DNA of 64,000 bases from Cheilinus undulatus (taxonomy: Eukaryota > Chordata > Actinopteri > Labriformes > Labridae). Shown here in pieces: positions 1,914 to 39,394 of this stretch. A program made the position numbers and the translations under genes. Under the pieces are notes generated by a model. The model saw nothing but the letters and a program-made list of their open reading frames with translations, had not been told where the DNA came from and did not search any database. Numbering within the stretch: position 1 is the stretch's first letter; the number at the start of each line of letters is the position of its first letter. The stretch is taken from assembly GCF_018320785.1 (NCBI RefSeq), contig NC_054873.1:25882196-25946195 (forward strand). Direction: 5' to 3'.

Positions 1914-2642
1914 ATGATGTTGTTTTCTATGCCAATTTCAAATTACTTGAATTGCGTGAAAGACAGCCAGATAAACACGATTTATCATGAAAATGACAAG
2001 ATTCTTTTTCATTACTGAATATTTGCAAAGATAATGTGCAGGATAAAAGCTTATGTTACTTATTAGAAGTTAATTCTCTAAATCTTGGTAACGGATAACA
2101 GAGAGAATTTGAGGAAACAACTTTTGCTTCGCTTAATCCAGTCTTATTTAACTGTTAGCATAGATGTAGATGTAATAGACAATAATGCAAGTTATATCTG
2201 AGCATAATTCAACTAACCTTACAGAAAAATAATAATGATTCAAACTGGTATCTAATCATAGACTTTAGTTACTATGGGCATGATATCACGATTTAATTTA
2301 CAGTGGAAAACACCAAAATAACTGTGCTGATGCGTTCTGTGACGTGTATTTCTATACCCAGGCCCCTCCTCTCCACATTGTGGTCTCTCTCTGGAGGTTG
2401 ATGTCAGTGTGGCAGCAGAGTCTTCAGGACAGGACTGAGCTGGTCAGAGAAACGCTGAAGAGCCACCAAGAGGGAGAGGAAGAAAAAGTGGGCGATGTTG
2501 CAGCTAAGACCTTGTTTATGGACTGTGTGGAAAGGCTGCTGTTGATACAGTCCACAGGGCTTGTCGCTATTTCTCAAGCTGAAAGGTTGAGGTAGCCTCA
2601 TCGCCGCAGTATTTTTAGATCACTTCTGAAAGGAATACAAAA

Positions 2643-5600
2643 ATGTCGTCTCCAAGTCCGGGCAAGAGGCGAATGGATACCGACGTGGTGAAACTGTATC
2701 CTTTTCAGACCATAAACAACAAGAGTGAAGGACCAAATCAAATGGCTTCTTTTCAATGACTGCCAGCTCTGTCATGTTGGTAATATTTGTTTTCAGTAGC
2801 TGCTGTTAGGATGTGGATTATGTGGTGAATAGATTTGGTGAAAAGTGTAAACACTTTGATGTTAACGTACAGCTCCGTGTTTAACCTATCCCTACATATG
2901 TAAGCTAGCTCACAGTGAAGTTGGCAGGACTGTGAAGGAGCTACATCTCTAGCGTTGTTTTGTCTGTTAGCGTTAGCCTGCTAACACATTAGCATTGTCC
3001 GTGTAGAAATGTATGGTTTGAGAGTTAGCAGCTGAATCTGTCGCAATATGAGACTGAGTCAACTCTGTAAGCTTTGAACAGTGTTAGCATTAGCTTAGAG
3101 GTGATAAAGTTAGCCTGGTAAGAGTTAATATGTGGTCCCACTGGACTGACAACCTTGTCTGAAGGACTGGCGAGGACTGTTTTTACATTTTAGAAATGCT
3201 TCTTAGAGAAAAGGAGTTTATTTTTGTTAATTAGTGACGCTGACGTCAAGGTAGGTAATGTACCTCTCTGTCACCAAGGAGAAAAACACGGTCGCTGTTG
3301 TGTGACAGAATAATTTGTGAAATTAAAGATAGGCCTATATGTGAAGTCGAATGCTACAGAGATTTTACTAATGTAAGGTAATTATAAACTGGACCATCTG
3401 AGCTTTTTTTCATTGTTGCAAAATACAAAAAGTCTTAAAATCGATAATAAATACAACAAAGCTTTATCTCATTGTTTAAAATATAATATGTATGTCATTC
3501 ACGGTATAGTGTGTTTACTAAAAATTAAATGAATCTATATGGTTCAGATTATTTTATCCCTAACGTAATATGCCTAACACAAACCAGGGGTGAGTACATT
3601 TTGGCTATCAGCATTTTTTTCTGTGTAACAAAATCGTCTTTGTGTTGTAATGTCACTTGAGGTTATTTTATATTTTAACTGCTTATTTCTTTAGTCTTGG
3701 TATAATAACTAATCGTATCATTTGCTTTTGTGTAAATATTTGCTGTTATCTGCAAAAGTTTGCATGAAAGGATTTGTGACAGCGTGAGCTGAATTGTTTT
3801 GTTTTTGTCCTGCAGCTAGATGCTGCTCTCTGATTGGTCAGCCTGTTACCATCCGGAACATGGTAGAAGGCGGGGCTTCATACACAGCTGATCGAGGAAC
3901 AACAAGCGTGCAGCACGGGGCACATGAGGGGATGGGGGCTGGGGGCTGGGAACATCCCGTTCAAGGCAGGGGCTGTAAACTACTCTGAGTCGGTGTGGTT
4001 TAAGATGTAGTCTTTTTTTTCACGGTGACCTTTAACTAGCACACAGCTTCAAACAAAACGGTCAGATAATTAAAAGACATCAATAGAGTCTGAAATGTAA
4101 GGATTTCTATTTTTATCAGATTTTATTGTACAGTTTTCCTTTGTTTATATTGATATCTTTAGGTTTTAAAAAACAGTTTGCAAACACATTGTGAAATACT
4201 TAATACTTAACTTAATGACATTTTAGCCTGAAATGATAAAATCTGTCATTGCAGGAAATATAGTTAGATTGGATTTATTCAATTTTAAAATAATTGGTGA
4301 TACAGTTTATTGGTGAATATAAGTAATTGAACATTTAAGTCATTATTGGTTCTGTTCCCACATTCACAGTAAAATCATTAGTGGTAATGTAATTTTGTAA
4401 TGTTAAATTTAACAGAGTTTATATAATTCTCACAGGTTCAGAAGTAAATTTACACTTTGGAAATTATTAATATTTTAGCTCTCGTGTTAATTTTTAGCAC
4501 TTGCATTGTTGTTTACAACAGTTTCAAGTTTGCCTTCACCACAAGATTATTTCCTTTCACTTTAGGTGTAAATTTGAAGAATTAAAACTTCTTTACTGAC
4601 ATAGTTCAATGCACTACCCATACTTAATAAACATTGCCCCTTCATAAGACCTCTGGCAAAGTCAGGTGTTTTACGGTGAGGATGGTGCAAGGAGATAAAA
4701 GCGGAGCTAGAATAAATGTTTTATTTTTATTCAGCAGTAGACCTAATCCTGTCACAGTAAGGAAGTGACTAACTCTGTGGATAACATCACTCACAGTGTT
4801 AAGGTGTTTAACATAAAAAACAACAATCCACCAGGAACATGAGCAAAGGAATGAGTTTTTAATATAAATATATTTGATTCATAATATTTGTAGATGTATT
4901 TGTCATAACTAGTTAATGTTCATAAGGAGTAAATGATTACCAGATAATTCAGTTAATCCTTCACATCTTTTTGAACCCCACCAAAGGCCTCTTATGATAT
5001 TGCCTGTCTTTTTTGTGTCATGTATGGCTTTGTGTGCTTTATTCTTCTAGATCTTTATTCCTTTGCATCATCTCCAGCTAATATTCAAAATAAACACCAT
5101 ATTTAACTGTTAAGAGTTAAGTTCCACACATAAACTTTAAATAACAAACTTATCAATGATTTAAACAAAGGAAAAGGATACAAAACAAAGTTACTGTTTG
5201 TCTTCTATGACATAGATGTTTGTTTTGTTGGTATCATTTTAAAACATTGATTAGAAATCTAAGAATAGTGAGTGGGGCCATCTGAAAAAGCCCTTTAAAA
5301 TCAGGCTTTAAAACTAAGTAACATGAGATCTAGTGTTAAAAATAAGGAAATAGTGTTCATTTACCCATGTGCACTGTGAGCTTTAGCTGAAGTAATGCTT
5401 TCCTATGTGTAGTTACTTTATTCCTGAGTGAGCATGTGCTTGTTTCTGTGTGACTCGGAGGGAAATGCATAAAGGAGAGAAGTCTATAACATGTTTTATT
5501 TAAAGGACCCACAGCCTGGATCTCTTTTAAAGCCACTCTGGCTTCTTGGTCAGTGGTTTGCAAACCTTTTCTCCTGAGTGACTCTTGGATGGATGTTTTC

Positions 5601-8600
5601 ACTTCTATTACCTCCTGACAGTTATGTAATCAAGCTATGGAGCGCTGTTATTTGTGCTCCAGCAGTTTGGCTAAATAGGCATGTGCGCGTTACCTTGGTT
5701 AGATTGTGTGTGAAGAAATGACAGGAGGATTTATGACAGCGTGATAAAACGCAGCGTGACAGCTCCTCGTGTGGTTTCTGGGTGCCTTTTCTCTTCTCAG
5801 TCTGTCATTGTGCCACACTCACATAGTCATTGATGAATGCGCTCGACCTTGCCGCTGTCATCACAAGCTGTGATTATGACACATCCTTCCCACCAAAATC
5901 ACAACCCATCGTCTTCAGTTGAAGAACATGTTCTAACAGTCTCCTTTACTAGTATAGCAGATTTATGCACTTTATGTGTTTTTTTTTCTTTTGATAATAT
6001 TAATGACACTACTACTTTTTAACTTTATTTGACACCTCCTTACCAAGGAGAGAAGTTCAATATGCTTTTTAATGCTGATGATACACTAAAATACAATCGC
6101 ACCCACTTGTGGTAAAGCTCCTGTCATGAGCTTTTTTTGTAACAATTTGGGCGCCCCTTGCAGATATTTCAGTACATCTTATCTTTGCTGATTTTTATCA
6201 TATTAAGTTTTAAAGATTTTCTGTGTTTGAATTAGGGCTGGGCAATTAACCGCAAGTTAGATTCAATCACAATATGGGCTGCTGCAATTTTCAAATCGCA
6301 GAAGATGCCATATTTCTTTAACCTGAAATTTGTGTCAAAATACCAGTTTAGAACTTTTTTTTTGCTGCAGAGATGTCATGCATTACATATCATGCAGTCA
6401 TTCCAGTGACATTTTTTGAATATTGTACAAAAAAATGACATTTTCTTCATTTTTGTATATTTTTCTGACTAAATATGAGAACTATATAAAAAGGATCATT
6501 CCTTTTAATACAACAGTTCATAACTTGTAAAATGAGTCTTAATCATCTCAAAAAGATGTTTTTTCAAAATTGTTGAGCCCTAGTTCAACCTAATATTGTG
6601 TTGGTCATAGTATAGAATGAATTATTTCTTGTTTGAAAATGCATGAGATGAGGAACTTAAGAAATAATCGCATATCAAATCGCAATTGCAATATTGGGTA
6701 AAAGCATTACAATTAGATTATTTTCCCAAATCATTCAGCCCTGGTTTGAATGAAGAAGAAGATCCAAACCCAGGTTTGCAAAAACCTGGTTATGTATTTT
6801 TCAGAAACTGGCAAGCTTATTCATACTGTGACGTAACATTGTTTTATCTTATCACTGGTGCACAAACATACATCAGTTCATTCAGGGGGCAACCCAAGCT
6901 CAGAGCACACCAAAATGTGTTATTTTGACTGTTGGCTTGGTAAAACAAAGATTCCAGCTGCCCTGTAAGAAGTATTCAATCATAACTCTGGCTTCAGCTG
7001 CTCCAGGACCATTTTCTTTGAATCATTGCTGAAAAGTGCTCCCAAACTTTGTAGAAAGTCTCGTTAGTTAAACCCATTAATCCAGTGTTGAAGTTGCCAA
7101 AATGAGAATTCATTAGGAGGCTTAATGAGCTGACAGGTATGATGTGTTCAAGGCAAGCTTAGTAAAATGAGTATTAGGCAGACGTATATAAAATACCATG
7201 ATGTGTTTAAATGTCAAAACAAGGAAATAAACATTTATTTTTGTCCCTCTTAAGTTTTTGATGAAAACTAAGATAATTACAGTTGTGGAGACAAGGGACA
7301 GCTTTATTATTTCATCAGTATAAAATAGAGCAGAAGGAATCAGCATAACTTTTCAACTGAAGCTCTACTCAGCTTATACCAACAGCTTCTGAAAAACTGT
7401 AATGCTGTTTCATCTTTCACACCAGCAATAGAAAAAAAGATTAATAGTTGTATCAATAAGGCTTCAGATTGATGAGAGTACCAATCAAGGGTTGACCAAT
7501 ATATTTTTTTTCAGGGCGGATAGCGATACAGGTTATTTGTAGTGCATTTGAACGATAACCTCTATTTGAAACCAATTTGCATTTGTTATGACAAATAAAA
7601 TGTGCTTAATTTGGCAAAAGTAAATCTGCATGTTAGAATATGAATGGAAATAAACAATTTAGCTCTAGCTCTGTCAACATGAGAAACAACAGAGAGCAAC
7701 ACAGTTGCAGCAGGAAACAGGAAGTGATGCTGTACACTCCTTGTGTCAGTGTCACCCATGCTTCGGTGCTGACTGGCTGGTAGTTGTGTGACATCAAACC
7801 AGCCAGACTGTGTTGTGGACAAGACTTTAGGTGAGACTGTAGAGAGAGAAAACAAAACCAGAGAGGAAGACACCCCTTGCAGTGGAGCCAAAGCAGCACA
7901 CCATTGAATTTACTCATTTTGGCAGATCATCTGTAAAATAAAATGCTGACACTGACATTCAGCTAAATGCTAAATGTCAGCATCAATAATCGGCCTAGCT
8001 GATAACGTGTCTACGCTTAGTCAAATGATGAAAGCCAAATGAATCTCTCATTGAGAATCTTTGTGATATAAAATGTAAAGGGGGTCTGTTCCTGCAGGAT
8101 GCTTAGGCATAAAAGTAATTTTGTTTCTTTAGGTCTTGCTCTCATTTGAACTAATTAAGATACATCACAATTAATTTCAGTCAGTTTCACAACTAACACA
8201 AGAGTGTTTTGGAGTTGTTAGATTGTGTATTTGATGAGTTTGATGAGGGAAAGCCAAAAATACCGTCTGTCTCCATTGAGTTGGCACAGCAGCTCAGAAC
8301 TCGGCAGTGCCAATCTAAAAATAGCGTTCACGGACAACTAAAGGTAACAAACCTTTACTAAGACTATAGGGATTATGGCAATGGGAAAATTTGCCAAAAT
8401 GTTTAAGTATCCCTTTAAACAAACTCTTTTTTATCTAGCTCAGAGGCTGATTTTATTGGGGGATACCACATGATACAATGCACTTTACTGAGGGACTTTG
8501 TCTTAATCTTTAAGTGCTGCACACATTTATCAGTCTCCACAGCAGTAGCAACTAATAACAAGTAATGCTGATAATAATAGTCATTATTAGGGATCAGCTG

Positions 8601-11600
8601 GTAAGCAAAATCAGTTTTATTCACTCTAGAAGTGTAATGTTTGTTCACGTTTCTGCTTTAAGATTGACAACCATCCTGGTCCTGTGCTGACTGAGTGTGA
8701 GGTTCAGACCTGTTGTCTGGTTTGTCAGACACCACATTATTGATCTCATGTTATTGATCCTATCTTTGCCTGGACATGTTAACAGAGGCACTTTGACCAG
8801 CAGCTCAGCCTTTTTTTGTTTCTTAAATCATACTTGTTAACATATTCTTTGAATTTTCTTCCTCTTGTGTTGCTTTTTTTTTTTTTTTGGTCGCTCTTTA
8901 CCTTAACTGTGCTTCAGCATTGAGAGCAAACATGAGGTCACCATCCTCAGCGGTCTCAATGAGTTTGTGGTCAAGTTTCATGGTCCACCAGGAAGTAAGA
9001 GCTATTCGTGTCATTTATTCTTCTGTTTGTTCTGAATTTTTGTTTCAAAGTGTAAACTAATTTGTATTTTTCTCACAGCGCCGTATGAAGGAGGAGTGTG
9101 GAAGGTCAGAGTAGACCTACCAGATAAATACCCCTTTAAATCACCATCAATAGGTATGTGATATTTCTGTCTAAGACACTTAAAAAACTCTATATTAAAT
9201 CAGAAAAATGCATTCATTTAAACTGCTTTTTTTAAACAGGATTCATGAATAAAATCTTTCATCCCAACATTGATGAAGCGTAAGTACTGTAGATATTGAT
9301 TTATATCATTATTTAATGATCTGTATGATGACAAAATCTTTATACCGGCTTGTAAGATTCTTGCATGACTGAAACACTAGTTTCCTGTAGCAGTTTCTAA
9401 TATTTAGCATGTTGGATGGTATTAAGTAAAAGCTGATGTTTCTTTTGTGTTCAGGTTGCTGAAAACAAATGCTGCTTCCCACGCTGCTCTGTTCAACACT
9501 CACAGTGTTTTGTGTTTCAGGTCAGGAACTGTGTGTTTAGATGTCATTAACCAGACGTGGACGGCTCTCTACGGTAGGCTACAGGCACCACTGTCATTGT
9601 CACAACTTTATGTAGTTTCACTGATCATCAGAGGTGAACATCAAACATTAAAAACCATTAACAAAGACGTGAACTTTGTTCCCAGTTAATCCATTTATTT
9701 TATTAAGAATTAACAGAACTTTATATTAATGTTGAATCCTGTTGCAAGTCCGATGGTGTGCTGTCCTATTAGTGTTTTCTTCCTATTGTTAGTATTATTT
9801 ACACAACTGCTGCACATTATTATCATCACTAGATCGTTATGATTCTTGTGATTCCAACCATTCCCATATTTTATAGTCATTTAACCTACCATTTAAAGCT
9901 CCACGGTACTCTCTTGTGCTCTCCTGATCATGATTTTCCAACAAAAACAGTCCTACTACGTCAAAACATGCCTCACAATCCAATTCCAGTTAAAGATTTA
10001 ATTTAAGCACATTACATTCATACAATGTTAATTTTGGCAGCTATTTTTAATTTCAGTCTTTAGATGAAATGTCTTTTAGTTTTAGTTACATTTTAGTCAT
10101 TTCTACCGTTTTTAGTTTTAGTCTAGTTTTAGTCGACAAAAACTCAAAAACATTTTAGTCTAGTTACAGTCTATAGAAAGTCCTCAAATGTTAGTCTTTG
10201 CTTTTAGTCCAAGCATTTATTTTCTTGGCTTAATCTGGTAACAAATGATGGTAGTCTGTTCTATGCACCCTGACAAACCTGAGGTCCCTGCTTTCTACAG
10301 CTGAGCGGCAGAATAGATACAGATGCATTGTTTTTGACAGATTTACCCAGTGGAGAAAAATCACAGATTTTAAATGTCCGACGAAAACTACATGACATTT
10401 TAGTCTAGTTTCAGTCATCTTGACGAAAACTAAACTTACTTTTTGTCAGTTTTAGTCTTCACAGATCTATTTTTGTTAGTCTTAGTCTAGTTTTTGTCAT
10501 GGAAAAAAAGGCTGTCTATGAACATTTTTAGTCATAGTTTTAGTTGAGGAAATTAACACTGCATTCATAAAAATCCACAGATTGCTTAAAACCTACTAAT
10601 ATAGAAACTTTTTCAATATACAACATCTGGACAAAAGTATGTGACGGCCTAACCGTTTCTCCAACGGGGACTGTAACAACATTGTATTTAAATACATGTG
10701 CTTTAATATGGAGTTGGCCTCCCTTGTGCAGCTATAGCAGCTCCACTCTTCTTAGAAGGCTTTCCACAAGATTGTGTAGTGGTGTTTTTTGGGAATTTTT
10801 GCCCATTCATTCTGTAGAGCATTTATGAGGTCAGGCTCTGATGTTGGACGCGAAAGCCTGGTTCGCAATCTCTGTTTCAGTTCATCCCATAGGTGCTTGA
10901 TGAGGTGGAGGTCAGGGCTTTATCCAGCCTAGTCAAGTTCTTCCACACCAAACTTATCAAACCATATCTTTATAGTCCTTGCTTTGTGCACTGGGGTACA
11001 GTCATGTTGGAACAGAAAAAGGCCTTCCCCAAACTGTTACCACAAAATTGGAAGCATAGACTGAATGGCTAGTTGCTTGACTTTATACACCTGTGGCAAC
11101 GGGTCTGATTGAAACACCTGAATTCATTAATTAGCAGGTTTGGCCAAATACATTTTTCCATATAGTGTATAACTAGTCTTCACTCTAATGGAGCCTTAGA
11201 AGTATGTAACTCCATGTAGGTCTAGCAGCACTTCATAATAAAAGAGCCCTGGACGGAGATGGCTCGTTATTCAATGAGCGCTCCAAAGTACTGAAGGTCT
11301 TATGTTCTTACTCTGATTGTCTGTGAGCCATCTGTCCATGTAAGAACTGGGTTTGGATCTTCTTCTCTCTCAGATTGTGGGGAAAGCCGGTATGTAGTCA
11401 TTTTAAAAGGACATCAATGGAAACATAATTTAACTGAGTTAAAGTTTTCCATAATGTTTTTTTTTTTTCAAGATAACGCCCACATAAAAAATTAATAAAA
11501 AATTTACCAAAGATAATTAATGATTAACAGATGTGTGTGAGGCTTTGTTCACTAGCTTAATTTTGCTGACAGAAACAGAGACTGAAAACACACGGCTTAT

Positions 11601-14600
11601 AACTCCATGGTGCAGCTTCAGCCAGAACATCTCACTTGTAATCGGCTTAGACTTCAGCAATCACTGCTCTCTCTACTGAGGTCATCCATTGAGCATTGAT
11701 CAGTAAGAAGGTCATTAGGCTGAGAGGTGCTCTCTGATTGAAGGGCAGAGTACTTGTAGGGCCTGGAGATCTTAAAAAAGCCCTAAATTCTCAAAATAAG
11801 GCCTTTAAAGTCCTCGATTTGGTGTGAAAGTCTTAGATTCTTTTTAAAGGGCTTAATTGTTCTGGTTTTACTTTGGCTAAATAAAATATGACTCCATCAA
11901 TAATTGTCAGACAAAGTTTTTGGTGTGTTATTACTTAGAAAACAACTCTGGATTTGACATCTTCTGATAATATGACAGTACAGGTGACAGTTTCAATACT
12001 TCTTCATTGAGGTGGCAGAACTTTTAAGCACATTTGTTTTAAGTGCCAGTCGTTTGTTTTTCCCAGGTGGGTGGGGATCTGAGATGGATTACTAAGAGAT
12101 AGCTTAAATAATGTGTTTATCTTACTTTTAATCCACATCTCTGTTAGTATGTCTGTCATGTGTTGTCTCTGTAAGAACACCCTGATAAGCGTGTTTTGTG
12201 GGGGTGGTTTGACACCGGTGTGATGAGCCATTAGCGCGCTTTAGTTTGGATGACTAACACACTGAACAGAATACAGTCACTTGCATTGTTTCAATCTCCA
12301 TTGATTCAGCACTCAGATTTGTTGAAGTGTAGCTCAAACTTTGGCATTGTAATGATGGATATTCATTTTCAGCATCTGGTTTGTTAATGTCTTTTTACCT
12401 TTAAAAGAAAAAAGACTTGTTTGCTTGAGTCTTCAGCTGCAGTTAGCTGTCTTAAAGATGCAAGAAATCAGCACACTGGTTTTATTTTATTTAAAAAAAA
12501 ATAAAACAATTCAAAATGCATTCATTGTATTTGTCAAATTTCATAGATTGTTACATTGTTAAAATGGCATTTTATTTGGTAAACAGTGCTTATGACTTGT
12601 AAGGACTTGAAAATTTCAAGCCTATGACTTTGGACTTGACTTGACTTGTCTTTACTTGAGACTTGACTTGGACTTGCACGTCTTTACTTGAGACTTGACT
12701 CGAGTCTTGGGATTAAAGACTTGAGACTTACTTGAGACTTGCAAAACAATGACTTTCTTCCACCCCTGGTACTTTGTGTTAAAATGTTGCCAAATATTAT
12801 GCCAAGTTTGATCAATTTGCACTACTTGGATTTACTGTTGATGTATTTTTTTCAGATCTGACATGACCTTCGATTTATACTGTGTAACAGAAACATGGTT
12901 GATATAATTGATGTCTTGCCCACTTGCAGATAACACAGAAAGAAACTTATTTGGTCTGTACCTCACATGTCTGAAAGACCAGATACTCCTTTAAGTCTAG
13001 CTTACATTTTTCCTTCACACTGTGAACTTACTTCATATTTAACTTACAGCAGTTGTTAATAAAATGAAAGAACTGCATTGTCTTGCAGAGTTTCTTTACA
13101 TCAAACAGATAACAGAGAACGACACAGCCCTTCAGCTGTGAGGATTAAACAGAAGGGAGCCCTCTAGTGACTGTTTTTGTAGCTGTTTTTAGAGTTTATC
13201 CAGCTTGTTGACATATTTCTGTAGCTTTCCTGTCACTGTTCTCCGCGCACTGACTAATCTCTCTCTCTCTCTCTCTCTCTCTCCACATCCACCAGACCTC
13301 ACCAACATCTTTGAGTCGTTTCTTCCTCAGCTGCTCGCCTACCCCAACCCCATCGACCCTCTGAACGGAGACGCAGCGGCCATGTACCTGCACCGACCGG
13401 AGGATTACAAACACAAGATCAAAGGTAGCGAAGCTGACATGCACCTGTATTTGGATGATACAAACTTTAAATGTCATACAGTCTCTAAATAAAAATGTTA
13501 CAGGAACTACTTCAACTATCCAAGCTAGAATGATTTTTAACGTAATTTAGATTAGATATCTGTAACCTGATGAGTCAGAAATTTAACAGAAAACCTTTGT
13601 TTCTACATATTATCAGAAGGAAATTATAGATTTAGAAAAATAAATGCTATAACCCTAACCCTGCTATACAACTTCAAAATTGAAAGAGATTCATAAATGA
13701 AGCTTAGACTTTTTAGTAAAGCAGTAATCATCCCAATGGTTCAATTTCTCACTTTGCAGGCGCTTTGATACTGTGGTCATAGTGCTTTTGCCCTGGCAGC
13801 ATCCACAGACTGAGTTTTAAACCCAGTTCAGACCAAAGATTTGCAACAAGATGAGCTAAAACTCACAACTTCTTGCAACAGGCTCTTCAGTGACTTTCTA
13901 AACACCTGCCAGTTCACACTGCTGTGAGTGAAGGAGACAATGCATTGCTGTCAAAGCAGTAACTCTCATTGTTACTCAGTTTAAGGTGATTTATTTCTGA
14001 AATTACTTCATAATAAATCTGTCTCTGCAAGAGGGACAGTATTTTACACATTAGCTGTTTTTTTCCCTGCATCCTTATCTCCATGATGATGCATAACATC
14101 AGGCTCTTTGATTCCTGTCATCACTAATTCATCTGTGATCAACATTATAAAATATAATATATGAAAAAGCATACAAAATATATGCTTGCATGGACAAATT
14201 TAGCTCCTACAGCCTCGAATTTTTCATGGCTTATCTCATACAGCGCCTCATGTCCTGCTTATGAGCACAGCTAGAAAAATGAGAGACTCTTCTAAGCGAC
14301 AGTATTTCCCTTTTTCACATTTTATCTGCCTCTTGGAAATGATTACATGTTGTTATTTCCAAAATTTATAGCAAACAATTTGGCTAGCAAAATTGGCTTT
14401 TATAGCCTTTCAGAACAAGATTTATATACCTGTTTTTAAAACATATATCAGCTTGCAGTGTCCTGCAACCAGCTGTCTGCGACTTGACAAGCTGAATTGC
14501 AGGCAACAGCATCAGACAGCTTGATTCGAGTTGCAACTGCTCAGTTCAGACCACTGCGAACATTCAGATGTGTCCATAAACCCTCTCACTGCACTGTGAA

Positions 14601-16236
14601 TCTTTGGTCTGAATTGGGCTTTAGAGTGCTTTTAACTAGTGATTATTGTTGCTTTGAAAGTTGACTCAAGCTTTCCTTTGTTGTGTCCATAAAGGCTGGT
14701 TTAATCAGAACCATTAATCATTTATTGTAAAGAAGATTTTCACATACAAGGAATCTGACTTAGTGTTTGGTGCAGAAATAAATAACATCGATGAACTATA
14801 AAAATACTAAGAAGCCAGGAACTTCGACAAAATATTATAGAAAATATAGTATCAAAATAATTACCTAAAACAGAATGTAAACTTCACAAAAAATATGTAC
14901 AAAGGCACAAAAGATGCATTATACAGATGTGCAGGTATATTTGTGAATAGGTAATGGTGCATTTAAACTAAAGGAATATTGCACATGCACTGTGCAGTTG
15001 TAAACAGAAGAGATAAGTCTGGTGTATGTTGATGTAAAACACAAAGTCTCATGTAACAAGCACCATTCTGTCTGCTGGCTCTGGGGTTCAATGAAAGTCT
15101 CTTATGTGAGGGGGGGGGGGGTCAGTGTCCAGCTCAGTGTGCTCAATATTTAAAAAGGAATTTAAAATGAATCGGTGGAATAATATATGAAGTCCTGTCC
15201 CTTCTTGATTTTGATTGGTCAGTGGAGGAGAAAAGAGAGACTGACAAGTGCAGCACTGTCTGGACGTTTAACTTTTTTTTAGTACTTAGAGCCTTGAGAG
15301 TGCTGCCACAAAAAATTGCTGATGCCAAAGGCATTTTTTCATCAGGCACTGAAAAAACGGAACCCCACTGGTTCTGTATTAAAAGTGAGCAATGCCAGAG
15401 TAAAACACACCAGCCATGGACACAGACTCTTATACTGTTACATGTTAAACATATTTTGCGCATATCAATAAAGAATTTCACTAACTTTCCTTTGTCATAA
15501 CCGAAAGAGGAAATAATGAAAAACTATTTGAAATGATTTCAGAAATTTGCAGATCCCTTATCACTCTATGCCCTGTGAGGAGTTTTTAATATATGGTTAA
15601 ACAAAATTAAATTCATACTGATGACTAGATGAGCTTCCAAAGCAAATAAGACACCTGATCTATGATTTTGATTATTTTGACATTGAATTTTAATGCCTCA
15701 GATTGCATCCACAGTGTAGGTGTCAGAGAAGCACATGAAAACAAGAGCCTTTGATTGCTTTCTTCACAACAAAGAAATTATTTGCAGATTTGACTCTTAA
15801 AACACAAAAGGTTTACATTTTTATTTGCCAGGAAAAAAAATGTTTTACCTTGTACAAAACAAAATCACCACTTTGTCCACACAAAAAATACCTTATTCTA
15901 TTAAATAACTTAAAATTACTGATAATAAATTAATGGATGTATTCCTGAAACATCTGAAAACTGATACATCTGACTGTAATTTTTTAAAAGATGTTGGTAA
16001 ACCATGACTTCAATAACCCTCTTGTTTAACACAGTTGCACCTGAAATTATCTGTTGTTAGAAGAAGTGAAGAAGCTCCTGATGTCACATGTGCCCCCCTT
16101 TTTTATTCTAGAGTACATCCAAAGGTACGCCACAGAGGAGGCTCTAAAGGAACAGGAGGAGGGAGGAGGCGACTCTTCTTCAGAGAGCTCCATGTCAGAC
16201 TTTTCGGAGGATGAGGCTCAGGACATGGAGTTGTAG
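2643..16236 (+). CDS. ube2h: Ubiquitin-conjugating enzyme E2 H
   Basis: Seven coding exons join in frame: 2643-2695, 8918-8994, 9079-9153, 9240-9279, 9521-9573, 13296-13424 and 16112-16236. All introns are GT-AG. The product is 183 aa, the length of human UBE2H, and near-identical along its whole length as I recall it. It starts [16 protein letters not shown], carries the E2 HPN motif at 76-78 and the catalytic Cys at 87 (SGTVCLDV). The C-terminal tail after about residue 150 is acidic and Ser-rich and ends EDEAQDMEL, the family hallmark. E2 enzymes take ubiquitin from E1 as a thioester on the Cys. UBE2H is the homologue of yeast Ubc8 and works with the CTLH/GID E3 complex (established knowledge). 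Differences from human are conservative, for example HGPPG instead of YGPQG near residue 42. Confidence 0.97.
2696..8917 (+). other. ube2h: Intron 1 of ube2h
   Basis: A 6.2 kb first intron separates the N-terminal coding exon from the rest. Its donor is GTATCC, and its acceptor is CTTCAG preceded by a T-run. It contains an hAT-like MITE with a perfect target duplication at 6233-6743. A second possible element lies around 7490-8000. No coding exon was recognised inside. Confidence 0.8.
6233..6743. mobile_element. hAT-like MITE in ube2h intron 1
   Basis: The left end reads AGGGCTGGGCAATTA and the right end complements CAGGGCTGAATGATT, giving short imperfect terminal inverted repeats. Both sides are flanked by a perfect 8-base direct repeat, GTTTGAAT, at 6225-6232 and 6744-6751. 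An 8-base duplication with CAGGG-type ends is typical of hAT elements. There is no transposase frame, so it is non-autonomous. Confidence 0.8.
10023..10561. mobile_element. hAT-like MITE built of TTTTAGTC repeats
   Basis: The termini are CAATGTTAATTTT on the left and the complement of CAGTGTTAATTTC on the right. They are flanked by a perfect 8-base duplication, CATTCATA, at 10015-10022 and 10562-10569. The interior is mostly a degenerate array of TTTTAGTCTAGTTTTAGTC-like units in both orientations. No transposase is encoded. Confidence 0.8.
10621..11167 (-). mobile_element. Tc1-like element relic, internally deleted
   Basis: TA dinucleotides flank imperfect inverted ends (CAACATCTGGACAAAAGTATG left; CACTATATGGAAAAATGTATT right, complement strand). 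The interior matches, on the minus strand, parts of the transposase region of the 37.6-38.3 kb and 63.0-63.5 kb relics: the segments around 'TTTGTGCACTGGGG' and 'TTCATCCCA' are shared. At 547 bases it is far shorter than a full Tc1 element of about 1.3-1.6 kb and codes for nothing. Confidence 0.75.
12596..12742. repeat. GACTTGAGACTT-type simple tandem repeat
   Basis: Many near-copies of GACTTGAGACTT and GACTTGGACTTG follow one another, ending before 'CCACCCCTGGT'. The block resembles the body of a dispersed fish repeat. Its ends were not resolved. Confidence 0.6.
13259..13283. repeat. (CT)n microsatellite in the exon 6 polypyrimidine tract
   Basis: About 12 uninterrupted CT units end 12 bases before the acceptor AG of ube2h exon 6 (exon starts at 13296). 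The array is therefore the polypyrimidine tract of this splice site. Confidence 0.85.
13425..16111 (+). other. ube2h: Intron 6 of ube2h
   Basis: 2.7 kb intron with donor GTAGCG and acceptor TTCTAG after a T/C run. It contains a MITE at about 13819-14623 and a G-run at about 15111-15121. The frames at 15143-15500 have no recognisable product. Confidence 0.75.
13819..14623. mobile_element. MITE with ~24-base terminal inverted repeats
   Basis: The left end reads CCCAGTTCAGACCAAAGATT and the right end is the complement of CCCAATTCAGACCAAAGATT (19 of 20 match). The interior has no transposase. A clean target duplication was not found, so the superfamily is not assigned. Confidence 0.7.
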
Positions 16237-18890
16237 TGAAGGGGGACACCCTGACCCCTTTACTTCCCAACAGACTGTCATGTCCCAAAGAGCAGGAGCT
16301 CAGCACTATATTCATATTTAAGACAAGTTTTTTACAGTGACATGAGAATTTTTATCGCTATACAAGGATTTGCAGTATGATATTGCAGAATATAAACCTT
16401 TACATAGGAGTTTATGACCACCTGCCCCTCGCCCTCCTCCTCACTCCTAAAGGAGCCTGTTTGGATCAGAAAGGAGTGCATCATTCATCCTCATGGACTG
16501 CAGAGGTTAAATCATGGCTTTCACAGAAACAATACTGTTTACACTGAGTTTCCTCAACCAGCGACAACACCCACATCTCCCTCTCTTTTGTTGTGTTGAA
16601 CAAACCCCTCATCACAAGGCTGAAGGAGAACAGCATGATTACAAACACTGATTCAAAAGAGCTAGGGTTTTCTTCAGTTTTTTTTTCTAACTCTCATGTT
16701 TTTGACACTGAGGAGTTGCTGTTACAATCATCACTTCTGCTGAGGACCAGAAGGCCACAGTGTGATCATGTGATCATTGTGTACTGACTGGACTGGACTG
16801 CCCTCTGTGCAAACCTGATGACTCATCTACACACACGGTCGAACAACAAGTGCATCCGCCATGACATCAGCCAAGTGTGTGTGTGGCTGTGTGAATCATA
16901 GACTGTTTATAAATATGGACTATGCATCTCAGTTTCCTTCCATGGTACAAAAATGAAGCCAAAATATCTAGAGATGCACAGACTGGGAAAATTTGGGCAG
17001 ATACTAATACAATTTTTTAAAATTTTGATTTAGCCAATGCAGTTTTTTCATTACTTCTTTTCATCTAAGACTCCCACAGTGCCAACATTTTGTTCTGTTA
17101 CCATATTAACAGATGAGAGTTTGTCCAACAGGGGAATTCTTACGCCTTATAAAGAATAGCACCTTTGTACCAGCAGCTAGGCTAACTAGATGCTAGTGTT
17201 AAACTGATTGATTACAAAAAATAAACAGAGATAATTGGTATCTCTTCATGCCACATGGCAAATGTTTGTCAGCTGATACCAATGTAAAAAACTTAAAAAA
17301 CTTTAAAAGGCAGTGGCATATTGTGCTGCTGATACAGGTTAGAGCCAAGTCTTGCAGAAGTGATCAAGCGTATTTCGATTTAGAGTTTGAATTATGTCAC
17401 ATCTGTTAATATAAAGGAGATGGGGTTGGCTTCAGTCTATAGCAGCTGCCGCTCTGTCCATCTTAATATACAGTCTATGGTGTGCATGAATGTAATCCTG
17501 AGAGAATCATGCTGTTTTGATGACCTGTGTTGTGCTTAAAAAAGACGGATCAATATTCTCATCGTTCCTCCCCACCTCTCTCCTCTCCGTTTTAGGAAAG
17601 TCTCTGTCATTCTCTGAGTATTTTGTATATTGTGGCATGGCACTGAAGTAAAGTTGTGCAGGACTGTGTAGACACGCTGAGGAGGCCAGGTGTCGTCCTT
17701 CAGCGATTATTCAGATTCTTGTTGAATTATTGAACTTTTGCTTGTGTTCAACTATAATAGGTGTCTGACTTGCCTAGGGATAGTTAGATTTATTTTATTT
17801 TGCAGGTGGTGATTCTTGTCATGACATGGTTTAATTTTTATACAACATATAGTTAAAAGACTGTCCTGTAAAAATGAGAATGAAAACATCTTTGTTGAAT
17901 CAAATCCTCCAAAGACATGTTGCGCCTCTTCACCCCCCTTCTTATGCAAATATGTCCATAAAAATGATTTATGTAGTCAGACAGAAGTGCTCTTTGTTTC
18001 AGCCATTCGATGCTGGTATATTTACTGTTTCCTGCTGTCAATGGCGTGTTGTTTTCCAAAATGGTGGGACCAATATCTAACCGATCTGCGAGCTCAGAAA
18101 TCCTCCTCAGTGTGAATGTAAGGATAAAGATTTTACACTGAGGTAAAAATAATAATAATAATAATAAGATGGACGGTTTCCTGTCAAGAGTCCATCTGAT
18201 TGTTTCAAATTAAAGTGTTTCATCTTTTTGTCCTGTTTACTCCTTACAGGTGTGTGCCTGTTGGTTAGTAGTAACAGTTCACTGTTACATTTCATGATAG
18301 TGTACTTCTCTGTATGGAAACCTGACAACTGTTTTTAACATGCAGTCATTGCATCAAAGGTCAGCTTGTGTTATTTAAGGAAAAAAGTTTCACTTTACTT
18401 TATCTCCATCTGATCGGGCTCTTTCTTCTTGTTAAAATAAAAAAATGCAAATAATAATCCCTTTATATTTCTTCCATTGTGTATTAAAAGAGGGTTTACC
18501 TTTGTGTAAAAGAGTTGGTAAAAGTAGTGTCACAGTTTTGACATGGCATGAAAATGTTTCATTATATAGCCTAGTTATAATGGCTTAAATTAGCCTCGGT
18601 AACCAAATCTTTGTTGGTGTAGGTCTTAGGACTACATGATGTCACAGTTAACATAGTCGTTAAAATAACAAACCACTGTCCAGCCTTGTTATTTGTCCTG
18701 CTCTGAAATCATCATTGTATAATGTATTTTTTATTGATGAGACATATATTTGATGCCTATTGACTGTTTTTAATTTGTCTTTTAAGCCCTGTGACCAGGA
18801 TACGAGTCAAGATAACCCTGATTTTTAAAATGCAAAAAATGAATAAATGTGCTTCCCTTGTAACTTGAAGAAAGAAATAAAGAAGAAAAA
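16237..18890 (+). other. ube2h: Probable 3' UTR of ube2h
   Basis: After the TAG stop no further splice into coding sequence is needed. AATAAA hexamers occur near 18841 and 18875, the second within a plausible terminal context. UBE2H mRNAs have long 3' UTRs in vertebrates, so a UTR of about 2.65 kb is reasonable. The exact end is inferred. A MITE at 16897-17479 would be part of this UTR, and an (AAT)n run lies at about 18148-18167. Confidence 0.5.
16897..17479. mobile_element. CATAGACTGT MITE inside the ube2h 3' UTR
   Basis: Inverted ends of about 24 bases: CATAGACTGTTTATAAATAT on the left, and the complement of CATAGACTGTATATTAAGAT on the right. Both sides carry a near-perfect 8-base duplication, GTGTGAAT (16889-16896) and GTGTGCAT (17480-17487). 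This points to an hAT-like non-autonomous element. This terminus is a familiar one in fish genomes. No coding capacity. Confidence 0.8.
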
Positions 18891-21500
18891 TGTCCAAACT
18901 TTGTCAGTATTCTGCTTGTTTGATCGTCTCAATGTGACATTTCTTTTTTTCTTCAGGACTTATTAGTCTCCTACAGAACAGCCAATGCTGACAACCCAGA
19001 CCAAAAAGGTGGTATGCTAAATCAACCCGTTACACATACACCTCTATTCTACCCACTAGAGGGCGCCATACCTTTGCTTTATTGTCTGTGGCAGTCTGTG
19101 ATGTGTCCTATTGATGAGCTCATGCAACAAAATTACAGATTAATCCTTGATGTTCATCACTGTTGTATATTCTTAAAACATTAACCTTTGAACCACCCTG
19201 CTCGTATGTGCACCATTCTCCTGTGAGTAAACTTCCTGAGAGAATCTAATGTTCCCTAACGCATTATCTATTACAGCCACAAATTAATGAAGTGGAATAA
19301 ATGATCAATCCCACCCCTCTTTGGATGTGCATGCTGTGCCCTTGTTATACTATCTCTTCTTCTTAATGTTTTTATTTCCCTCTATAAGAGGTTACAAATC
19401 TGAGTACAGGGTGAAAAAAGGCACAAGAGTGATAAAAGATAATTTAAAAAAAGAAAGAAAATTAATCACATTTTACCACATCATCTTCCCTCATCATTTC
19501 ATTATTTTGACTTGTTATTGTTAAATATATATTTTAATCATATTGGATTATTTTTTCAGCAGTTTTTTCTCAAAATTGGCTGCTATACTTCGCAATATTC
19601 TCAGTATGTATTATTTAAAAAAGAAACAAAAAAGCCTAAGCACCATTATAATATAAAATAGTTTTCTATGGAAGCCCAGGATGGATGCTTAAAGTCATGT
19701 CTGGTTGTCTTCTCAAGATCCTGACTCATATTTTTTTCTATTAAAGATGAAAATTCTTGTTCAAAATTAACTTATCATATAAAACAGATCTTGTGCTTCA
19801 GCCCCTTCACATACGGAAGTCAGTGCTTTCAGACAAGGACCAAACATGTTAAAAAGATGATTCAGTGGACTGCTTATCACAAACGGACAAAAAAAAAACT
19901 GAAGCACGACAGCAAGGTTATAATAGTTTGGGATTTTTCATTAGTTTTTCCTTTTTATTTCATTTTCACTTTAGTTTAATTAGTTTTTACTGTTGGTTTT
20001 TTAGTTTTGTTTAGTTTTTATTTTGTAAAAATGGTTCATTTTAGTTTTAACTTTTCATTAGTTGCAGTGTTATTTTTCGGATAAACGTCAGGGTTGAGTG
20101 AAAATCATACATTTTTAAAATACATCATGGCCTATTTTAGCTGTGTAAGCTAAAACATGCCAGTGTCGAAAATGACTTTTCCACAAAAAAGTTTAAACTC
20201 ATATTCTATTTTTTTTTAATTTCAAAGTCACGACAAATTTCTAATCATAAGTTTTATACTTTATTGTAAACGTACTAAAATCTCTTCACCTCCCTTATAT
20301 GTAATGAGTCAGTTTTGGTCTGCACATTCTGCCTTACCTTCACATAACCTGCCCTCACCACCTCAGCAACCTCAGGCTAATGGTCATTAATTGTCAGAAA
20401 AGGATTGGAGCAACTTGCAGATAAGGTTTAAGAAGCCAGGATGCTCCAACTTTATCTGGTCCGTTTTACCTGATGGCTCATTTTATCTGAATTCACTCGA
20501 GGTGTTCTTGAGATCTCATCCTCTGTATTATCAGGCGACAATGCTGGGTTTCCTATGACCAGTCAGTTTCTTGAGTTCTCAAAAAAAGACCCAAGTCACT
20601 CTTTATAAAGGAAAAACTAGCATCGTTTTCCCGAGATAACGAGATTAATCCAGAGACTTGCAGAGAAAACCACATCTACTTCCTGTCCTGGGAAAACTGA
20701 TTAGCATATAATGTATGGATGCATGTCCGCTTTGGGCCTCCGTATCTTCGGGTTTTAGTAAATTTCACATTTTAATAAAAGCTTACTAATTTCAGTGGTA
20801 TATAAATGTAAATGCATATAATGAATGCTGAGATGCTGTATGCGCATGTGCAGCAGGCACACACAGGCTCATAATGATCTTATGAAATATCGATTGTTCT
20901 GGCCCTGCAGCGTCTTTACGTGCACGTGCAGGTTTCTTCTTTCTCCGATTATTAGCACTTTATGGCGATACTCTTAAGAATGAAATATAATATCAAAACT
21001 GTTGGAAGATGTAGCTTCTGTATGAGAGAATGGACGTTGTGTGTTTTAGTGGCCTCGCTCTGTCAAAAGACTTAAGAAAAAGTCAACAAACGACTTAAAA
21101 GAAGCATATGGAGTGAATAATGGATAGATTATTTCTATGATGTAGGAGGACACTTCGGCAAACTTTTCTGGTTCTTGGGAAGCTTTGTTATATCAAATGC
21201 ATGAACTGTGAGTGATATTAAGTGGTATGAGTAATAAAAAAAAAAAGAGTTGCCTTTTTTTGAATTGTTAAAGTTATCAGAGTAACGCGAGCAGCCCTGG
21301 CAGCGCCGTGCGGAGGCTGCTGGCCGGCGGCGCCTCCTTCATAATGTATGGAGAGGACAAAGGCTGCACGGCTGGATTTCAGCGTCAACTTTGAAAGAGC
21401 CGTAACCCAAACCTGCCCTCTCCCACTCTGACGCTCTCACATCAGCTGAAAGGATGATGATGCCTCTTTTTCCACCTGCAATCTGTCTAATAATCACCGA
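18891..21500. other. Spacer between ube2h and the miRNA promoter
   Basis: No gene was recognised. The interval contains a perfect CTCF-type motif at 19053-19067. A short TTAGTTTTTA-rich repeat fragment lies at about 19918-20060. The sequence becomes more GC-rich from about 21290, consistent with a promoter approaching. Confidence 0.6.
19053..19067 (+). promoter_or_regulatory. CTCF-type motif
   Basis: CCACTAGAGGGCGCC fits the vertebrate CTCF core consensus CCASYAGRKGGCRSY at every position. It lies about 160 bases past the inferred ube2h polyadenylation site and before the miRNA promoter, a sensible boundary position. Occupancy cannot be judged from sequence. Confidence 0.5.
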
Positions 21501-21539
21501 CAGCAGGTCAATGAGCTCTCCCGGAACTATGGATGCTCG

Positions 21540-21548
21540 TATATAAAG
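21540..21548 (+). promoter_or_regulatory. TATA box of the probable miR-183 cluster promoter
   Basis: TATATAAAG lies in a GC-enriched stretch (about 21290-21660) that contrasts with the AT-rich surroundings. It predicts a start near 21570. A plausible donor (GCTG|GTAGGT) follows at 21662/21663. No protein-coding exon follows on this strand before the miRNA hairpins 1.6 kb downstream, so the simplest reading is the promoter and first exon of the primary miRNA transcript. Confidence 0.5.
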
Positions 21549-23140
21549 AGAAGCAGAGGAGGCCTTAGGAAGGAGAAACTTTTTGCCCCTTCAGCCGGAA
21601 GGAAGGGGAGCGTGCGGATCGTCAGGACGGGCTGCAGCAGGGTGCCACACCCGGGGGTGCTGGTAGGTCTGCTGTAAACATCAGGGTGTTATTGTGTTGC
21701 AAAATGAGCTCTTCTTTAATGCCTGTGATAGTGTACTAAATCAACTATGTTTGGCTTTATGATGTAGTTTTTTTTTTTCGAACTAATTTGGGCAGCTTGT
21801 TATGACCAATCAGCCGATCTTCCAGTGCCCCCATCATCTCCTCTCCAGCGCGCATCCTGTGCGTAAAAGGCGCAGAGATGTGCTGCAGGCCTGCGTAAAG
21901 CGGCAGCAGAAGGAGATGGATGAGGGCGGCGTGGATTACTATACTACTAGTGGGTTAAGATGCTTACCAACTAATTACCTGTCCACTAAAATCCCCTGCC
22001 ATGCAGTCCAAACAAGCAGGGAGTCGCGAGGAGCGGAGACATGGAGACATGGGGAGTTCATTGATGAGAGTGGGGAAGAGGACTGATGAGGTACCAAAAG
22101 TAGTCAAATTTCCTCCAACAGGACAGTTTTTTTCTTGTCTCGGGAATGTGATTTTGAAGAAATTCTATCAATGGACTCGTTTGGAAGCTCAGAGAAGTTG
22201 TTTCTACTTGTTTTTTGTAGCTGGAGCGCTGTTGTGTTCACTGAGAATGTCTAATCATCTTTATGTAAGGTAAGAATTTGCAGGCCTGGGTCTTCTTAAC
22301 AACTGGAATAAATAAGAAATAGTAAAGCTGCCACTTTTTTTATTATTTTATTATGATGTGTCTGCATTTATTAATGAACTATAGCCAGGGTGATGATCAT
22401 CCAATGGAAAGGCAATTACAGAAATTCTTGCTTTTTGATGTTTTTCTTCTGTTTCATATGACTAATTTCATAAATATCTGAAGATGTATATGCAGAAGCA
22501 GTTGCGGATTTGTCCTTAGCTTTCAGCATTGATTATAACTGGAAGGACTCTGCTGAAGGAGGAGAGTAATGTAGATCTACTGTTGAATTATCAATGAGGT
22601 GTCACATGTACTCTGAGGTGCATTATTACAGTAAGTCACAAGTGACCTTATCATCATCACTGAGACTGTCACTCATCAGAAGAACAACTAAAAACATACA
22701 ACTAAACGCAGCCCCTTCATGACATTCCTGCTTGTGGTCTTTCTCACTCACTCGTTCTCTCTCCCTGATGCTTTTTACACTATTGATCTCTCCCGGAAAC
22801 AGGGAAGATGAGCCCTGCTTTGGGACCCATTTGGAGCATCTCAAAAATCACTTAGCGCATCATTCCCTACAGCCAGGATCAATGTGAGCATCAGACCTGC
22901 TCCTCCAACAGCACCAGGAGGAGATCATGGAGCCCAAACGTGTCCTAAAATACAGAAACAAACAGAAATGCTCTGGTAGATTTGAAAATGTATATATGGC
23001 TGCTTTTTCATCAAGATTTTGTAATGGAAAATTTGAGCTGATGAGTGTCCAGGTAGCAGACTAAATCCCCTTACACTTTTTCTGATGACAGGAAGTCACC
23101 TTTCTGGACTTTTTCTGTATCATGATGGACTACTTGTGTA

Positions 23141-23233
23141 TCTCCTCCTGTTCTGTGTATGGCACTGGTAGAATTCACTGTCGCAGCACACTATCAGTGA
23201 ATTACCATAGGGCCATAAACAGAGCAGAGATAG
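23141..23233 (+). ncRNA. mir183: microRNA mir-183 precursor
   Basis: The 5' arm at 23158-23179 begins TATGGCACTGGTAG and matches mature miR-183-5p as known from vertebrates over its full length. The 3' arm at 23197-23218 begins GTGAATTACC and ends GGCCATAA, matching miR-183-3p apart from two bases in the middle (CCATAGG instead of CCGAAGG). The arms pair into an extended stem with flanking TGTTCTGTG and CAGAGCA also paired. It is the first of three clustered hairpins in the standard order 183-96-182. Confidence 0.97.
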
Positions 23234-23286
23234 AACCACACTGCCTGTGTCCACCCATACCCTCCCTTTCTAACATGACCCTCTTC

Positions 23287-23367
23287 TTTGCCCATTTTGG
23301 CACTAGCACATTTTTGCTTTGTGTCTCCTCCTTTGAGCAATCATGTGTAGTGCCAATATAGGATGAG
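23287..23367 (+). ncRNA. mir96: microRNA mir-96 precursor
   Basis: The 5' arm at 23296-23318 begins TTTGGCACTAGCAC and matches miR-96-5p including the seed TTGGCAC. The 3' arm at 23339-23360 begins AATCATGTG and ends GTGCCAATATA, close to miR-96-3p. The loop GTGTCTCCTCCTTTGA resembles the mammalian loop. In mammals seed mutations of miR-96 cause progressive hearing loss; the seed here is wild type. Confidence 0.97.
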
Positions 23368-23549
23368 AAAACAATCAACTGCTTGGAAAATATACCTGCA
23401 TCTTCTGAGTTTTTCTGTATGGATCTGATGGACTGTGCCCCCACTCTCAGATATCACCGGTTACCATGGAGGCTGGCGCTTCATCTCAACCAGTGTAACC
23501 TGAACCTCAATCGTCCCACAGATCTGGTGGCAGTGACCGCTGCTCTGCA

Positions 23550-23640
23550 TCTCTCTCCCACAGTTTTTGGCAATGGTAGAACTCACTCTGGTGGGCTGAG
23601 AGGATCCGGTGGTTCTAGACTTGCCAACAACTGAAAGAGA
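23550..23640 (+). ncRNA. mir182: microRNA mir-182 precursor
   Basis: The 5' arm at 23566-23589 begins TTTGGCAATGGTAGAACTCA and matches miR-182-5p. It differs from the human form only near the 3' end (CTCACTCT versus CTCACACT). The 3' arm at 23610-23630 begins TGGTTCTAGACTTGCC, as in miR-182-3p. The stem base CAGTTTTTGG pairs with CCAACAACTG. It lies about 200 bases beyond mir-96, tighter than in mammals, where miR-182 is several kb away. Confidence 0.96.
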
Positions 23641-24237
23641 GCTTTGACCTGCCCTCCACCATCACATGACGTCACAAGAACAAGTTTCTAGGTTTAATTC
23701 ACCAGAACCATCAGGGGTGTTAGGAAAGGTCGCAGGCCATGGTTGGTGGATGTGTGAGTGGCTGCAGACGGAGCAGTGAGAGGTTAAAATCTGTCTCTCT
23801 CTCCTGAGCGTTCATGCAGCCACAGAACAGCAAAGAAACTCTGCAAGCAAACAAAACATCCATAAAAAGTGTAGTGAATCTGCAGGTTAAGGAGATTGAA
23901 ATCTCCCTTTGAGATTAAATTGGCCTGATCACAGTTGAGAAGATCCAAATGAAGGTATGAACCACAGTTGACCCTTGAGCCACAGGCCATTAAGCATTGA
24001 GGAGGCTATCATGCCCTGATCAAAATAATCAATTTTGCTCATGTGTTTGGCTGTGAAACCTGCTGTAAATGTGGTCACATGGCTGCTATCCTCTTTGGCA
24101 TGAAGCTCAAGGTGGTGAGCACAAAAGCTATCGAGTGCTGTGGTAAAGGTAGTTAGCCATAGGCCACTTTTGACACCCTATAATCATGATAAAATATCAA
24201 TAAATGAGAAACTTTTGATAAAAAATAAAACTAAAAT

Positions 24238-25180
24238 TTCAGAGTCAAAGTTACACAATCGATAACCCATTATCTTCCTTTCAACAAAAGCTAATATTAG
24301 CATTCAAGCTTTTAGATATCATTACATTAGCTAAAATAATGTTTGATAGCAGGTTATTTGCTAGTTAGATGTTCCAAGTTTAAATTATGCAAGTCATGCA
24401 TCGAAGCTTTTCCTGTTTTTTTTTCCTGTAAAATACCAAACATTAGGCAAGCAATAGCATTCAGGGGCATTATAGCTCACTATGTGTAAGCAGCCTGATG
24501 CTAATATGAGCTATTTGTTCCCTTTGTGTAGCTAGGTTATGTGGTGTTTTATGTTAAATATGACAAGATTTTACTCCAAAATGGCATCAAAATTGTATTT
24601 TTCAGTAATCAACCTGGACCTGGATGAAAATGGTCAAAAACCTTAACTCCAAAAAGCTAACAACATAACCTTAATATATGGCAACAGCGATTCTGAGCTT
24701 CTAAACTACTGACAGTGTATGAAGGTCTTAAACATTGATTATAAAGATCTGTATTTCAATTTTTTAATCTAAATTTTAGAGTCAAAGTTACACAATCAAT
24801 AACTTAGTCTCTTCCCTTCAAGAAAAGTTAATATTCAAGCTTTTAGATACCATTATGTTAGCTTAAATAATGTTAGCTAACTGGTTATCTGGTAGTGAGA
24901 TATAGGTTTAAATTATGAAAGATATCATTGAAGCCTTTCCGTTTCTTCCCCAAGAATGCCAAACAGTAGGTTTGTACTAGGGTTTAGGAACATTTTAGCT
25001 TTCCATATTTGTTTGTGAGCTGCTTGATGCTAACACTAGCTGTTCACTGTGTGTAGCTAGGTTATGTGGTGCTGAAATACGACCAGATTTCAGGATTGTT
25101 ATCAACCTTTAAATTCAAACAGCTAACAACCTGGATTTAGCAAATGGCAACAGCTGTTGTTTATAAAGGTTTGTATACTA
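24238..25180. repeat. Local tandem duplication, unit about 540 bases
   Basis: The segment starting GAGTCAAAGTTACACAATC at about 24241 recurs at about 24780. The two copies stay alignable through AAGCTTTTAGAT, AGCTAGGTTATGTGGTG and GCTAACAAC to about 25180. The second copy is shortened by deletions and has diverged. No coding capacity or transposon termini were seen. Confidence 0.75.
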
Positions 25181-25322
25181 CTTACTAGTATCATTTTATA
25201 TCTAGGTGGACTTCCATGTTTCAGACATAAATGATCCATGGGTCCCTAAACACTTAACAGCTTTTAAAAAAATCATAACTAGCATATTTGCATTTTACAG
25301 GAGCTTTTGTTTAACCTTTACA

Positions 25323-25839
25323 TAGTGGTTTTCAGCTGGTGGGTCGGGGCTCAAAGGTGGGTCACAAAGCTGTTTTCAGTGAGTCATGAATGTTTGTCGG
25401 AAATAAATTAGAAATTAAAATGTGGCAAAAAGTCTAGGATATATCAGAAGAAGCAGACGCACATCCATATATCTATATTATTCAATTATCCTCTTATAAG
25501 GAGTATATTTATGTTGTTTCCCCAAGGTTTTGACTGACTTACTTTTCTTCAGTGAAAGCTGTTTTTCCCCAGATAATGAGGTAATTCTTTAAAAAATTAT
25601 TTAAAAAATCCAAACTTTAACAAGAAAATCCAGTAAAAAAAGTTTGCACATTTGTCCTCCCATGGCTTCTGTAATAATGTGCTTTTAAAAATACTTGCTT
25701 TGTCCTGTCTTTTGTTCAGTCATATGTTTTCTTCTATAAAAGGTCAAAAATGCTATTTTTTTTCAGTAAATTTGGGTCTCATTTTTTTTAGGAAGAGGGT
25801 AGTGTTGGATCCTTAGGATCAACCAATTGAGAAATACTG
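25323..25839. mobile_element. hAT-like relic with CAGTGGTT-type ends
   Basis: The left end TAGTGGTTTTCAGCTGGT pairs as an inverted repeat with the complement-strand right end CAGTATTTCTCAATTGGT. The flanks CCTTTACA (25315-25322) and CCTTACAG (25840-25847) look like an 8-base target duplication with one base lost. CAGTGGTTCTCAA is a common hAT terminus. No transposase frame remains. Confidence 0.65.
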
Positions 25840-28216: not shown

Positions 28217-28264
28217 CGCCCCCTAGTGGACAAACACTTATGGGAGTTTTTGTCCACTAGAGGG
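28217..28264. repeat. Inverted repeat carrying CTCF-type half motifs
   Basis: Arms 28219-28234 (CCCCCTAGTGGACAAA) and 28249-28264 are reverse complements with one mismatch, separated by 14 bases. The left arm, read on the minus strand, is GTCCACTAGGGGGCG, a near-perfect CTCF core. The right arm on the plus strand reads TCCACTAGAGGG. Confidence 0.6.

Positions 28265-30778: not shown

Positions 30779-39394
<8,616 letters not shown>

Follow-up and report, generated by a model that had tools for sequence, protein, structure and literature searches.

The miR-183/96/182 cluster of vertebrates is located at 7q32.2 in human and on chromosome 4 in zebrafish, for which a single cluster is listed (PMC2427041, PMC12563060). 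In human, UBE2H lies upstream of the cluster on the same strand, and transcription of the cluster is described as starting 5.0-6.9 kb upstream; the region concerned holds three matches to the ZEB consensus (PMC5580467). The three microRNAs of zebrafish are reported as light-regulated, with one primary transcript suggested (PMC11750094), and Asian seabass appears in a review listing with miR-183a and miR-183b (PMC4159003), so that a fish with two forms has a precedent. According to a zebrafish CAGE study, a canonical TATA box is found in only 9 pri-miRNAs, which counts against a TATA-driven model; the main text of that study does not name the three microRNAs, and its supplement may list them (PMC4838339). 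No fish map of the cluster promoter was found in the open-access papers searched, a scope outside which most subscription papers lie, and for this cluster, which is related to deafness and to the retina, the promoter seems little mapped in fish. Here we describe a copy of the cluster with a candidate promoter and compare it with the other copy that this genome contains.

The window, i.e. the whole stretch of 64 kb that was analysed, is part of contig C9 of an assembly of 1.17 Gb in 46 contigs. A search of the entire window with Rfam at gathering thresholds gave three matches, all on the + strand and together spanning 485 bases:

23151..23224, + strand, mir-183 precursor hairpin (Rfam RF00663, 93.3 bits, E 3.6e-21; fold z -6.1)
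23288..23365, + strand, mir-96 precursor hairpin (Rfam RF00669, 84.5 bits; fold z -5.3)
23559..23635, + strand, mir-182 precursor hairpin (Rfam RF00702, 82.7 bits; fold z -2.5)

All three hairpins fold better than the mean of their shuffles; no shuffle folded as well for mir-183 and mir-96 (0/200 each), and 4/200 did for mir-182, the least clear of the three. The 5p arms and seeds are wild type when read against the mature miR-183, miR-96 and miR-182 sequences which we take as reference. An earlier sequence-only reading of this DNA had claimed three hairpins in order within 500 bases with wild-type seeds, and both claims hold: the window carries an intact miR-183/96/182 cluster. Hairpins, order, strand and seeds are the same as in the known vertebrate cluster, and UBE2H precedes the cluster on its own strand, as it does in human.

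Whereas zebrafish is listed with one cluster, this genome has two. Genome-wide searches were made for the mir-96 and mir-183 families, with scoring of the best first-look candidates only (69 of 345,401 and 59 of 184,139). Above the cut-off the mir-96 family was found in two places, on C9 and on contig C23, and the mir-183 family in the same two; mir-182 was found beside the C23 pair. Below the cut-off both searches returned opposite-strand echoes at the two loci, and the mir-96 search one weak match on C5. A third copy of the cluster elsewhere in the genome is unlikely. On C23 the hairpins are likewise arranged in the order mir-183, mir-96, mir-182 on one strand, above the Rfam cut-offs, with seeds identical to those of the window. 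The two mir-183 copies share 94.7% identity over 95 bases, and position 22 of the mir-182 5p arm is T in the window and A in C23. The C23 hairpins score 96.4 (mir-183), 96.2 (mir-96) and 99.7 bits (mir-182) and thus higher than those of the window in all three families, which makes the window cluster, as judged from these scores, the more diverged of the two, a point missed by the sequence-only reading.

The genes on either side of the cluster were compared between the two loci. In the window these include:

2634..16251, + strand, UBE2H exons, 5' of the cluster (at approximately 2634, 8915, 9076, 9518, 13293 and 16110; collinear with C23)
47733-48101 and 50512-51489, - strand, muscarinic-like receptor (Pfam 7tm_1)

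UBE2H, a gene name which we assigned from its sequence, is located upstream of the cluster at both loci with collinear exons; a single exon matched Pfam UQ_con with E 6.6e-5 and 23 bits, under the cut-off of 27. Of 206 aligned residues, among them a few at intron edges, the two UBE2H copies have 185 in common, and they differ at 43 of 85 four-fold sites (JC distance 0.84), a high divergence that bears on the age of the duplication within the limits of a comparison inside one genome. The DNA-binding domain of NRF1 was found on C23 only, approximately 20 kb beyond the cluster on the opposite strand; all five PF10491 matches (5/5) are on C23, and this search gave none at the locus of the window copy. 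C23 keeps the order UBE2H, cluster, NRF1, which we take to be the human order. The same gene order thus occurs on two chromosomes with one neighbour lost from one of them, and the presence of UBE2H and the cluster on both, with NRF1 on C23 only, fits a chromosome pair of the teleost genome duplication. The two clusters are presumably old duplicates, probably from that duplication.

The receptor, named muscarinic-like by us where Pfam gives only 7tm_1, is split across two open frames. It was considered as a further duplicate pair and set aside as undecisive, because its second-ranked match, on C23, lies 8.3 Mb from the cluster with 72% identity, and a shorter match on C24 surpasses this identity with 86%.

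From UBE2H to the hairpins the window has 6.9 kb and C23 has 18 kb, and most of this DNA does not align between the copies. The following features of the interval, all on the + strand of the window, enter the discussion of the promoter:

20643..20748, + strand, distal block shared with C23 (68.9% identity over 106 columns; blastn E 1e-8 and 1.2e-10)
21467..21513, + strand, 47-base block just upstream of the TATA box, probably shared with C23 (local score 20)
21540..21548, + strand, TATA box TATATAAAG, 1,611 bases before the mir-183 hairpin
21567..21662, + strand, proposed leader exon with donor at 21663 (score 8.5), unshared with the duplicate
22749..22900, + strand, inner block between promoter and hairpins, shared with C23 (67.5% identity over 154 columns; E 3.6e-12)

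The sequence-only reading had placed a TATA box within a GC-enriched island 1.6 kb upstream of the hairpins on the same strand, and these features are present: the box lies at 21540, the GC content of 21280-21700 is 55.8% against 38.6% for the window, and of all 400-base tiles (step 50) the one at 21251 holds the most CpGs (20). TATATAAAG occurs in the window once on the + strand and once on the - strand, and the + strand has 12 copies of the looser TATAWAAR, so that the TATA box by itself is weak evidence. Transcription is predicted to start at approximately 21567-21571; the closest pyrimidine-purine step is 21566/21567, in a weak initiator context. The counterpart segment of C23 (45000-45500) is also CpG-rich (25 CpG) and contains TATATTA, a poor TATA, at c23 45425, 5.17 kb before mir-183. 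A second GC- and CpG-rich stretch of C23 (L009 6700-7660), in which GA repeats and a CCAAT-like site are found, lies 3-4 kb before mir-183 and could be another promoter of the C23 copy.

Both copies share the order distal block, 47-base block, TATA-like site, inner block, hairpins. From the alignments, the case for the distal and inner blocks as common to both copies is strong. The distal block, approximately 0.8 kb before the TATA box, contains what is presumably an OTX/CRX-type site, TAATCC in the window copy and GGATTA in that of C23. The idea that the inner block belongs to a conserved spliced exon was rejected, since the splice sites of the two copies are misaligned. Other blastn matches in the interval are weak: one just past the UBE2H stop (E 0.01), and two out of order at 20184-20247 (E 0.075) and 22702-22733 (E 0.007).

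The 47-base block was spotted by eye and tested afterwards. With the island and leader of the sequence-only reading (21280-21662) as query and the C23 place predicted from the distal block as target, its score was reached by 3/4000 shuffles, 0/614 real targets and 0/748 real queries. In an earlier test, one scoring gave 0/300 shuffles as good in all six settings; a second scoring gave counts from 0 to 5 of 300 across six settings, one of which favoured a different place in C23, and with either scoring 0/93 real tiles were as good. A blind search of 2 kb against 4.7 kb returned the block as best match, equalled by 13/1031 shuffles and 2/16 real windows. It was undetected by blastn at word sizes 7 and 5. 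A permissive Smith-Waterman comparison of the promoter with C23 was uninformative (49/500 and 6/500 shuffles; at least 10 of 123 other real windows higher), and a 16-base degenerate pattern taken from the block proved unspecific, with five exact places in the genome (four forward, one reverse) against one for the reversed control. After masking of the block, the best remaining match paired 21350-21379 with c23 47423 (score 18); it lay off the line of the other blocks and was discarded. The stretch directly before the block gives a hint of similarity, with 79/1000 shuffles as good. Owing to the mixed outcomes of the blind and permissive tests, the block is probably, short of certainly, common to both copies. 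The case is stronger because its spacing is alike in the two copies, with 719 bases in the window and 756 in C23 separating its start from the distal block's end, and 26 and 45 bases, respectively, from the block to the TATA-like site.

In both copies CACCT and CAGGT occur within the 47-base block, the second reading CAGGTA in C23 and CAGGTC in the window; ZEB repressors bind cores of this kind. At the candidate promoter of C23, six CACCT/AGGTG sites are found in 621 bases, a number reached by 2/994 overlapping tiles, and two other forms of the ZEB motif gave 4/994 tiles each. A similar grouping in the window was rejected, since one site in 421 bases is near the chance count of 0.84 and the other motif forms gave 194/636 and 458/636 tiles; the grouping stands for C23. 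With six sites and its distance of 5.17 kb, C23 is thus like the human promoter region with its ZEB matches at 5.0-6.9 kb, and the window copy, with one site, is unlike it. ZEB control of the cluster in this fish is only a lead. Clock elements were considered and set aside: one D-box, TTATGTAA, lies at 22261 and one CACGTG lies at 20923, both at places unmatched in C23.

The sequence-only reading had linked the promoter to the cluster by inference. The shared block beside the TATA box, together with the C23 TATATTA near the human start distance, supports this link; order, spacing and the 47-base block come from the comparison of the two copies, and the cluster probably uses the 21.54 kb promoter. 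We consider the following most probable, at roughly 0.72: the window holds one of two copies from an old duplication, and the TATA box at 21540 together with the 47-base block would direct RNA polymerase II to a start near 21570. One primary transcript would run through all three hairpins and be processed by Drosha and Dicer, and the distal and inner blocks would probably serve as enhancer or repressor sites.

Compatible with this promoter is the proposal that a short leader exon (approximately 21570-21662) is joined by splicing to sequence that immediately precedes the hairpins, so that these would lie in or after a first intron. The good donor claimed after the TATA box is present (CTG|GTAGGT at 21663, score 8.5 by a weight matrix), an acceptor with a pyrimidine tract is found at 23091 (7.7), and the mouse cluster has been called intronic (PMC3794778), whereas the human cluster has been called intergenic (PMC12563060). 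On the + strand of the window there are 41 donors of at least 8, or 0.64 per kb, so that one within 150 nt is expected by chance in about 1 of 10 cases. The leader shows no similarity to C23 above shuffles (578/1000 as good), and in C23 the first donor of at least 6 after the TATA-like site comes at 46021, a distance of 596 bases, with none in the 595 bases before it. A better donor, the strongest between TATA box and hairpins, is located at 22270 (AAG|GTAAGA, 10.2), and with ten acceptors of at least 7 in the window any pairing is arbitrary. As leader sequence and donor are unshared, the exon is a feature that chance could supply; this part of the sequence-only reading did not stand up to the comparison, and we regard the spliced leader as unlikely. 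The donor at 22270 comes right after the D-box-like TTATGTAA at 22261.

Transcription could also start elsewhere, from a second promoter at 21.8-22.3 kb or at the inner block, or by read-through from UBE2H. The inner block is better conserved than the 47-base block, and work in human describes two possible start sites as well as UBE2H read-through in infected cells, which the same paper sets apart from transcription of the cluster (PMC5580467). The region 21.55-22.75 kb gives only weak blastn matches to C23 (E 0.15 in a T run, 0.44, and the out-of-order match at 22702), and ten AATAAA/ATTAAA signals are listed between UBE2H and the promoter, words that are common by chance in this DNA. Such a start appears doubtful. 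Far less probable still is that the 21.54 kb promoter drives another gene and not the cluster. None of the 16 plus-strand open reading frames of at least 70 codons in 21450-34140 reaches a Pfam cut-off, a search that single short exons could escape, although two of them have weak matches below it (23089-23358, DUF4074, E 0.087; 29867-30097, T4_deiodinase, E 0.068). A translated comparison with C23 (best match per frame, E at most 1e-4) returned UBE2H, the hairpins and places at approximately 36-38, 50, 56.5, 59 and 63 kb. The latter, including those past the cluster, look like dispersed repeats because they are out of order, transposase-like or on parts of C23 with matches at several points of the window; past UBE2H the hairpins are the only in-order matches without the look of repeats.

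Two further observations concern the DNA downstream of the cluster. The stretch 26250-27250 is GC-rich and contains three plus-strand open frames without a Pfam match. Transposase-like remnants, which we take to be Tc1-like, are found at 36097-36558, 37649-38128 and 63033-63431; the second has a weak DDE_3 match under the cut-off, and the other two resemble the same C23 stretches.

As a system the locus described here, with its probable start near 21570, is ordinary in kind, and its value lies in the mapped candidate promoter. The second copy in the genome provides internal footprints, i.e. three short blocks of a size that can be tested with reporters, and the C9 and C23 clusters are a natural pair for the question of how duplicated microRNA clusters divide control. 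The window copy differs from C23 in the missing NRF1 and in a candidate promoter at 1.6 kb instead of 5.17 kb from mir-183. A tentative and rather improbable extension is that control has been divided: one ancestral promoter of distal, core and inner blocks would have been kept by both clusters, C23 keeping the ancestral 5 kb spacing and the ZEB-type sites, and the window copy losing most of these sites, gaining a strong TATA box and shrinking the distance to 1.6 kb. If this were true, the window copy would be a differently tuned source of sensory microRNAs.
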